A stretch of 64,000 nt of DNA from Bacteroidota bacterium (lineage in GTDB: Bacteria > Bacteroidota > Bacteroidia > Chitinophagales > Chitinophagaceae). The notes under the pieces are model-generated. The model saw only the letters and a program-made list of their open reading frames with translations, did no database searches and was not told where the DNA came from. Positions within the stretch are counted from its first letter, which is position 1, and each line of letters begins with the position of its first letter. The position numbers were made by a program, and so were the translations under genes. The stretch lies in the NCBI GenBank assembly GCA_029573235.1, contig JAKQGX010000004.1, positions 1 through 64,000 of the forward strand. Reading direction: 5' to 3'. Shown in pieces: positions 1 to 2,261 of this stretch.

Positions 1-452
1 GGGTTGCCAAAGCTGTAAGCATAGGGCTTTTGCAGCGGCAGCCGCAGCCAACTGTCCTTCCATATCGTATCCGGCAGCACAAAGAGGCTGTCGTAATATA
101 CCGTATCTAACTGGGGATGTACCATAGCTCCCGGTACAATAGGAACGGGAAACATAGAGTAGTGGCTCGACCCCATCCGCACCATCAGCCCGGGCAGGTA
201 GGCACCCTTGGGGGTCATCCCGGCATTTCGGATATACAAGTCGGTGATGACCCCCTGGGCGGGCATGTTCGGAAAATCGGAACGATGGTACAATACCTGA
301 TAACCGCCTGACTGGTAGTGGGCTAACATAGTCCCTACAGTGTACAGTCTGGAACTGGGGGGGAAGGTATCGCATTTGTAGAGGGGGGTGCTCTGGGCAG
401 CCGCCGTGGTGGCTGCCAGCATAAAGGCTATTATGGTTATATATGTTCTCAT
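1..452 (-). CDS. Secreted protein of unknown function (3' end outside window)
   Basis: This reading frame is absent from the ORF track because it runs off the left edge without a stop; 150 codons are visible. It starts with a typical signal peptide (MRTYITIIAFMLAATTAAAQ) with probable cleavage after AAAQ, so the product is exported. The mature part is rich in Pro, Tyr and Gly and has alternating beta-strand character, but I recognise no family. The start lies only 12 bases after the stop of the upstream T9SS-secreted protein, so the two probably share a transcript and any switching of the first gene may also affect this one. It may be another surface or adhesin-like protein carrying its sorting domain beyond the window, which cannot be checked here. 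Confidence 0.75.
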   Translation of the reverse strand, partial: MRTYITIIAFMLAATTAAAQSTPLYKCDTFPPSSRLYTVGTMLAHYQSGGYQVLYHRSDFPNMPAQGVITDLYIRNAGMTPKGAYLPGLMVRMGSSHYSMFPVPIVPGAMVHPQLDTVYYDSLFVLPDTIWKDSWLRLPLQKPYAYSFGN

Positions 453-464
453 GATGCCTTCTAT

Positions 465-2093
465 TTAGCGTTTCAAAAATTTTTGACTGGGGATGCCGGG
501 TATTTGCAACCAATACGTACCACTGCCCAGCGAGCGGATGTCTATCTCCTTGCTCGGGGTGCTGCCCTGCAGCATTACCCGCCCGGTCATATCCATAATG
601 GTATAGTGGTAAGGTGCCGGTGCAGAGGTAGTAAGGTGCAGCCAATCGTTTGCGGGATTGGGGTAGAGGGTAGCTGCCGGCACGGTGGCTACCTGAACGA
701 CGGTAGGTCGAAACTTCATGGTATCCGGCGAGGGGGATAACTTCATGAATATATTCCCTCCGCTGCCATTGCCTATATCACGACCATCGTACCAAGCACT
801 CAGCAGGTAATCGCCGGAATTGCTGCAAGTACTCAACGCCAACGATTTGGAGGCATCGGCAGATGTATAGTCAGGGCTGATTGCGCCGGTAGGCGATTGA
901 TTGATTTGGTAATAACTGCCACTAAGGGGCAATCCGGAATTGGGTGCTATATCCCAAGCATAGTAGCTGAGGGAATCATATACCAAATAACCCACGGTAA
1001 ATTGTTTTTTACCTATAATAGGAGAAGTAATAGGATGGGGGAATTCTAAACCACCTGCCACACAGGGTGATTTCACATCATTAAGTAAAAAAGGAGTAGT
1101 GAAATGTTGTAACGTGTTGGAGGATTGACCACTTAACCCATACCCTTGATAGCCGGAGCCGACCCTTGCAGATACTGCAACTTGCCACAATGGCTCTGGA
1201 ACGTATTGTATGCTCAAGGATTCAATACGTGGGAAAAGAACTGATGCAACCGAATGATTTATTGTATCTACTATTGTTGGAGTGCCAAAAGGAGGGATTA
1301 GTAATCTAACGGCAGTCAGAATAGAGGGTGGTGCTCCAGGAGTAGCTACAGTATATGTAAATACTGCAAATTTTTGGGGATTAGACGGGTTATTTATTAG
1401 TGTATAACAAGCAACATCCGACGATTCACTATGACCGGTGTGGGATGCTACTTGTGCGGATAGGTTGGTACGTCCTTGTAACTTAAAACCCGACATGTTG
1501 TATAGGGCATAATAAATATCAGATGTCCCGATCGGGTCGAGTTCTGTCCAAGTAACAATAAGTTCATCCAAACGATGAAAGCCATCTTTGTTGTATTGGC
1601 GGGTGTCCGTCCACATATCTAAATGAGGCATTGGGTCGGTATCTGAAAACGGAGGATATGCGGAAAATGACAAAGGAGGCAATGTAATCCCGGCAGATGC
1701 TACATTAAAGGTTGGAAGCCCCACATCTATTAAATCGTAAAAATCAAGTCTCACAAAATTACCGGCATCATAGTAAGTGATGGCGGCACGGTATCGTCCC
1801 GGTTGGTCGGGGTTGTCGCCAATGACGATGTCGGGGCGGCTGCCGTCAATGTTAATAGTGTATGTATGCCCGGCATAGTCTTTAAAGAAAGCATGAGATA
1901 CGTTGCTCTTGCATCCTTCATCCCATGCAATGCCAATAATGGGTTGGTCGTGCAGGGTTTTTATCATGTCGCAATTGACCACTACATCGTCCAGCTTATG
2001 ATCCGGAACGCCCATATTGGTAGTCGTAACTTGGTCCACCCATACATCCGGCAGGGTGGCAGGTACTTGTGCGAGGGTGGATAGGGATAACAT
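465..2093 (-). CDS. Secreted protein with C-terminal T9SS sorting domain; N-terminus frameshifted by a G10 tract
   Basis: The last roughly 70 residues (from LYPNPANDWLHL through GRVMLQG and SGTYWLQI to the basic end FLKR) form a type A T9SS sorting domain (Por_Secre_tail), which directs export across the outer membrane. The bulk has no family I recognise. The ORF-track start gives an improbable short leader (MLSLSTLAQ) without positive charge. Upstream, an ATG at 2148 opens MLQKHTFRKMLWG and would make a complete signal peptide ending in LAQ, but the run of ten G between the two parts leaves them out of frame; nine or twelve G would join them. As written the gene is probably off, or the homopolymer was miscounted. 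It is followed after 12 bases by the secreted protein at the window edge. Confidence 0.85.
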   Translation of the reverse strand: MLSLSTLAQVPATLPDVWVDQVTTTNMGVPDHKLDDVVVNCDMIKTLHDQPIIGIAWDEGCKSNVSHAFFKDYAGHTYTINIDGSRPDIVIGDNPDQPGRYRAAITYYDAGNFVRLDFYDLIDVGLPTFNVASAGITLPPLSFSAYPPFSDTDPMPHLDMWTDTRQYNKDGFHRLDELIVTWTELDPIGTSDIYYALYNMSGFKLQGRTNLSAQVASHTGHSESSDVACYTLINNPSNPQKFAVFTYTVATPGAPPSILTAVRLLIPPFGTPTIVDTINHSVASVLFPRIESLSIQYVPEPLWQVAVSARVGSGYQGYGLSGQSSNTLQHFTTPFLLNDVKSPCVAGGLEFPHPITSPIIGKKQFTVGYLVYDSLSYYAWDIAPNSGLPLSGSYYQINQSPTGAISPDYTSADASKSLALSTCSNSGDYLLSAWYDGRDIGNGSGGNIFMKLSPSPDTMKFRPTVVQVATVPAATLYPNPANDWLHLTTSAPAPYHYTIMDMTGRVMLQGSTPSKEIDIRSLGSGTYWLQIPGIPSQKFLKR

Positions 2094-2104
2094 ATTAAAA
2101 ATTA

Positions 2105-2114
2105 CCCCCCCCCC
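2105..2114 (-). repeat. Homopolymeric G10 tract (C10 on + strand) in signal-peptide coding region
   Basis: Ten consecutive G (minus strand) lie 32 bases after the putative ATG at 2148. With ten G the frame runs into TAA shortly afterwards; with nine or twelve it continues into the 542-codon frame. Such tracts mutate by slipped-strand mispairing, so this is a candidate on/off switch. Confidence 0.75.
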
Positions 2115-2261
2115 ATAACATTTTTCTAAATGTGTGCTTTTGTAGCATGTTTGAGAAAGTTTAAAAGGTTAAGAATAGGTTAAAGATAAACACTATTCCA
2201 CCAAAAAACAAAATATGTAAGGAGATAATTTAGAAAATAATGGAACAACAACTAGGGTCCA

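Follow-up and report, generated by a model that had tools for sequence, protein, structure and literature searches.

The window analysed here, a stretch of 64,000 nucleotides, starts at the first base of contig C17. Its left end carries, on the minus strand, two genes for secreted proteins, gene 1 and gene 2, with the following features.

2115–2148, minus strand: ATG and basic n-region, MLQKHTFRKML(W), preceding the tract; identical in the copy on contig C29 and of the same layout in homologues from the genus.
2105–2114, minus strand: G10 tract in the signal-peptide coding region, with in-frame lengths of 9 and 12 (sequence, frame scoring and shuffles).
2067–2104, minus strand: (V)IFNMLSLSTLAQ, the hydrophobic core with the cleavage region, beyond the tract (open reading frame translation and hydropathy).
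465–2066, minus strand: mature type IX secretion system (T9SS) cargo protein, predicted to be β-rich and weakly β-propeller-like (translation and structure prediction).
501–668, minus strand: type A T9SS C-terminal sorting domain (Por_Secre_tail / TIGR04183), residues 476–531 (profile match).
1–452, minus strand: gene 2, encoding another secreted T9SS cargo (MRTYITIIAFMLAATTAAAQ...) and truncated where the contig ends; the full-length copy lies at L038:5720-6646.
1–2237, minus strand: stretch repeated on contig C29 (L038:5337-6171), where the tract is G8 instead of G10 and gene 1 residues 25–490 are missing.

The tract runs as G10 from 2114 to 2105 on the coding (minus) strand, and hence as C10 at 2105–2114 on the plus strand. 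Translation from the ATG at 2148 gives MLQKHTFRKMLWGGGNF*, and this frame closes after 17 amino acids. The downstream open reading frame, from an ATG at 2093 to position 465 (542 amino acids), lies in a different frame and is open back into the tract. A tract of G9 or G12 joins the two frames, fusing MLQKHTFRKMLWGGVIFNMLSLSTLAQ to a protein of 540 amino acids that ends in a T9SS sorting domain. By eye and by hydropathy, without use of a signal-peptide predictor, this fusion makes a good Sec signal. The original prediction, which had placed the n-region before the tract and the core beyond it in another frame, with G10 out of frame and G9 or G12 in frame, was right in its tract count and frame arithmetic and matches the translations from 2148 and 2093. 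The locus thus has what a contingency locus of the simple sequence repeat type requires near the 5′ end of its coding region: a repeat that determines, by its length, which frame is read.

The gene might instead start at 2093, or at an ATG that uses the first G of the tract, leaving the tract as an untranslated leader or a tuner of initiation. The ATG at 2093 is in frame, an ATG adjoins the tract in some family members, and at G8 or G11 the tract-overlapping ATG opens the short, signal-like MGGVIFNMLSLSTLAQ. However, MLSLSTLAQ has no n-region and falls short of the length of a Sec signal, and the upstream basic n-region is conserved in frame-compatible form across relatives. We give a downstream start almost no credence.

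The prediction that gene 1 encodes a T9SS-exported protein holds, in that the sorting domain is real: Por_Secre_tail matches residues 476–531 (9.7e-9) and TIGR04183 also matches. SprA is encoded in the same genome. Gene 1 has both hallmarks of a type A T9SS cargo, a Sec signal peptide and a C-terminal sorting domain, the former only when the tract is in frame. Surface exposure of the product is supported by prediction only, from the signal peptide, the Por_Secre_tail match and the presence of SprA in the genome. Pfam and NCBIfam searches of gene 1 returned nothing but the sorting domain, besides a sub-threshold TapA match to the same region. Confidence in the predicted structure is low (mean pLDDT 59); the modelled body looks β-rich and propeller-like, and we claim no fold beyond that.

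Gene 2 (452–1) has its own signal peptide, and its complete copy on C29 carries Por_Secre_tail at the C-terminal end (2.5e-10). Only 12 bases separate the gene 1 stop at 465 from the gene 2 start at 452, which makes co-transcription plausible. Co-switching is not implied, because gene 2 starts independently, and the idea remains speculation. Compared with its C29 copy, gene 2 has a dN/dS near 0.9 on few changes, a value compatible with relaxed or diversifying selection but based on too little data.

Homology between C17 and C29 begins at window position 2237 and the left flanks are unrelated, so the copies are two loci in different surroundings. C17 ends inside the C29-type repeat, which explains the contig end. 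The two leaders, from the same genome, differ at none of 125 flanking bases while their tracts are G10 and G8; extending the alignment to 216 bases brings in a single substitution and an indel in a T run. Otherwise identical copies that differ in repeat length are a further mark of contingency loci, met here for paralogues and not for clones. The C29 version of gene 1 has lost residues 25–490 and shares both ends with C17. The second copy of the two-gene unit spans L038:5337-6646 (C29:27336-28645), its gene 1 consisting of leader plus sorting domain. Across 155 bases of sorting-domain DNA in this unit, gene 2 is 98% identical to gene 1, and this similarity suggests gene conversion of C-terminal domains.

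Taken alone, the G10 of the window is only mildly unusual. C10 is expected 0.08 times per dinucleotide-shuffled window and appears at least once in 6 of 100 shuffles; the genome as a whole has merely three tracts of at least nine G. The position of the tract, together with the recurrence of that position in homologues, is far outside chance. We sampled seven genomes of the genus, all draft assemblies, and found at least one run of nine or more G in every one. Homologues whose signal peptide has a G tract at the matching position occur in six of the seven, the MAGs among them being labelled uncultured Taibaiella sp., Flavipsychrobacter sp. and Bacteroidetes bacterium SZAS-27/28. Across the genus, 24 of 51 tracts of at least nine G fall within a signal peptide, between basic n-region and hydrophobic core and often as MWGGV (p = 4e-18 against an assumed chance rate of 5%, which we regard as generous). 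A signal-peptide pattern search gave 14 matches in the genus, against 0 with the reversed control. The homologue positions, the share of tracts in signal peptides and the pattern matches establish the tract as a conserved family feature. The original prediction called for a check of homologues and would have been refuted by tract-free relatives that start downstream; the homologues carry the tract in their signal peptides instead, at lengths that cover all three frames. The locus is part of a multigene family, with up to about nine loci per genome, and not the lone locus first envisaged. The single gene 1 protein as query found no related loci; an alignment query found 14. A family-wide poly-C pattern gave matches mostly unlike signal peptides, and a general pattern without the cleavage motif was dominated by chance matches.

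We scored frame by comparing each observed tract length with the length that joins the frames. At 32 signal-peptide sites in six genomes of the genus, not all of them independent (they include paralogues and orthologues), 8 tracts are in frame, 14 at +1 and 10 at −1. These counts do not depart from equal thirds (chi-square p = 0.42; 8 of 32 against one third, p = 0.35). This spread is the prediction of free variation and fits neither a fixed programmed shift nor miscounts around an in-frame length. ON and OFF lengths thus both exist among homologues (8 in frame, 24 out), as they should for a contingency locus. Near-identical leaders within genome G117 repeat the pattern: contigs C8, C27 and C87 have G10, G11 and G8 with 2–7 flanking mismatches, and C38, C45 and C81 have G10, G11 and G12 with 2–4. 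Full-length in-frame members also exist, such as L308 (G8, 578 amino acids) and L138 (G8, 373 amino acids up to the contig end). A programmed frameshift, suggested when the first four homologues were all at +1, was ruled out by the wider set.

The frame counts also bear on whether the window tract is a homopolymer miscount, that is, a true G9 in a gene that is constitutively on. The assembly is a draft, some sequencing platforms are error-prone on long G runs, and the window has just one G/C run above 7 nucleotides. Yet about 30 A/T runs of 7–8 lie inside intact large open reading frames of the window, and the other G10 in coding sequence of this genome (on C42) is in frame. Errors around a fixed in-frame length should moreover produce mostly in-frame calls, whereas three quarters of the family members (24 of 32) are out of frame in independent assemblies, with scored lengths reaching G13. 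We consider a miscount very improbable; given the family-wide pattern an assembly error here is unlikely, although for a single tract without reads it is not excluded.

Two pairs of orthologues indicate that the bodies are maintained. The genes on G117 C48 and G236 C194, both with an out-of-frame G10, have a dN/dS of 0.26 over 529 codons, and the lipoprotein pair L110/L128, both at +1, has 0.21. The bodies are therefore under selection even though only a minority of the assembled alleles could yield an exported protein, and in these relatives the frame is kept despite an out-of-frame tract. For gene 1 of the window dN/dS is not computable, because the C29 copy lacks the body.

That the out-of-frame orthologues on G117 C48 and G236 C194 share both G10 and purifying selection is also what one would see if transcriptional slippage or ribosomal frameshifting yielded some in-frame product at any DNA length, making the tract a device for low-level expression or tuning. 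Out-of-frame genes of Buchnera are rescued in this manner by polymerase slippage on homopolymers (PMC2831843). A fixed programmed shift, however, predicts a single offset and not the three seen, the (CA)n repeats of a sister genus are not slippery in the same way, and read-through leaves unexplained why lengths change faster than their flanks. We leave it a small chance. Decay into pseudogenes that drift in tract length is scarcely credible. About three quarters of the sites are out of frame, the C29 copy lacks its middle and a member on G276 C30 has internal stops, but such drift does not account for open bodies of 529–580 amino acids, the low dN/dS of both orthologue pairs, the full-length in-frame members or the recurrence of repeats at the same site. 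A hypermutator lineage was rejected: mutS1 scores over cut-off in five of the seven genomes, which argues against a general mismatch-repair defect that raises slippage, a point against the switch reading. No mutS1 over cut-off was found in the genome of the window, which is 81% complete.

We therefore return to the contingency-locus reading of the original prediction, which is supported by the homologue tracts and by a second copy that differs only in its tract across the immediate flanks. Translational phase variation by slipped-strand mispairing at the signal-peptide G tract is, in our judgement, very probable; the switching itself is inferred, without reads. Mispairing at replication would add or remove G residues. 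Only with lengths divisible by three (9, 12) would n-region, core and body be read as one precursor, whose complete Sec signal peptide would allow it to reach the T9SS and the cell surface. At other lengths translation would end after 14–17 codons or rely on weak internal starts without the n-region. Each cell lineage would then display a random subset of paralogous T9SS cargo proteins, whose bodies may also diversify by deletion and by swapping between shared leaders and C-terminal domains. The purpose may be evasion of phage, predators or grazers, or varied adhesion. It is by inference that we attribute slippage to a clonal population, absence of the surface protein to OFF lengths and an adaptive purpose to the switch. 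Mixing of lengths within a population has likewise not been shown, the differences between copies being those between paralogues or homologues in draft assemblies.

Repeats at this place are not confined to T9SS cargo or to the genus. Lipoproteins from three species (L110, L128 and L144) have G9 in the signal peptide before the lipobox, all one G too long. Homologues in the sister genus g12 carry (CA)10 in the leader, out of frame with the ATG at L243:1094 (L243), (CA)n in frame (L306) or C14 (L224), and the leader of another secreted protein there has C12 (L234). In genus g8, G10 lies in the signal peptide of a secreted α/β-hydrolase-like protein (dN/dS of 0.17 between two copies), and another gene has G16. 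Judged from these leaders, sister genera use other repeat types, a point beyond the original prediction. We argue that instability itself is selected, because different repeats occupy the same functional place. Only a few genes underlie this evidence from sister genera and other protein classes, the least secure part of the case.

Several further tracts were recorded. The secreted α/β-hydrolase-like genes at L314:3564 and L240:852 (G107) carry G10 in the signal peptide; at that length a second ATG brings the other frame into use, and two different N termini alternate with tract length. Non-coding tracts of G10, G18, G15 and G11 occur at L134:2034 and 3688 (G236 C140), L107:15 and L108:1512 (G117); three of the four share the flank TATTTCCAAATTAATTATGTTAAAAT and the fourth is similar, possibly marking a second, promoter-type family of variable tracts. 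In the genome of the window, an in-frame G10 deep in a large outer-membrane-protein-like open reading frame (L037:2088; C42:36087) is a further switching candidate. Another tract, G9 at L036:2361 (C27:29360), precedes a small minus-strand gene by about 40 bases; it sits at the end of a contig, beside an apparent repeated segment of ribosomal-RNA type.

Repeat-driven phase variation is best known from small-genome, host-adapted pathogens. Within the Bacteroidota, Bacteroides control surface structures stochastically by site-specific DNA inversion at promoters; the present family shares the phylum and the stochastic surface control, but would act by repeat slippage in coding sequence. Campylobacter and Helicobacter carry poly-G contingency genes, a phasome of many G tracts of 8–12 per genome whose frame varies freely, the tracts being scattered over different positions in surface genes of many classes. 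Multiple G tracts and free frame variation recur here, at one signal-peptide spot in secreted proteins. A close arrangement in mechanism is pilC of Neisseria gonorrhoeae, in which, according to PMC5354566 (citing Jonsson 1991), frameshifts at a homo-G tract in the signal-peptide coding region switch an exported surface protein; the tract length is 9–20 (PMC5953494). The pilus-associated PilC and its export route are unrelated to T9SS cargo, pilC comprises two genes and not a larger family, N. gonorrhoeae is an obligate human pathogen, and its switching is proven, whereas that of the T9SS cargo family is not. The opa genes of Neisseria resemble the family in their many paralogues, each with an unstable leader-peptide repeat, variable bodies and shared ends (PMC5354566, PMC5953494), but their repeat is the pentamer CTCTT and Opa proteins are outer-membrane proteins without a sorting domain. 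Pfam and NCBIfam searches gave no homology of the product to the PilC or Opa families, so the likeness is one of mechanism, not descent.

The open papers searched on phase variation in the Bacteroidota and the T9SS, including Chitinophaga, Flavobacterium and Porphyromonas, held no report of this for T9SS cargo or for the phylum, subscription papers not being covered. We lean slightly towards a broader proposal, a repeat-driven phasome in the Bacteroidota: in several Chitinophagaceae genera, signal peptides of T9SS cargo, lipoproteins and other exported proteins may independently have acquired unstable repeats (poly-G, poly-C, (CA)n). Combined with an exchange of bodies by recombination among common leaders and sorting domains, this switching would give free-living bacteria an opa-like variable surface. 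Annotators should note that in the majority of assemblies family genes look split or devoid of a signal peptide; the secreted proteins of these bacteria are consequently under-called, and tract-bearing paralogues are places where contigs break. For the biology of these uncultured Chitinophagaceae, known from draft genomes, the finding would be a phase-variable gene family that acts on T9SS cargo, and it offers a testable account of surface variation in them, the presumed benefit being defence against phage, predators or grazers, or else adhesion.
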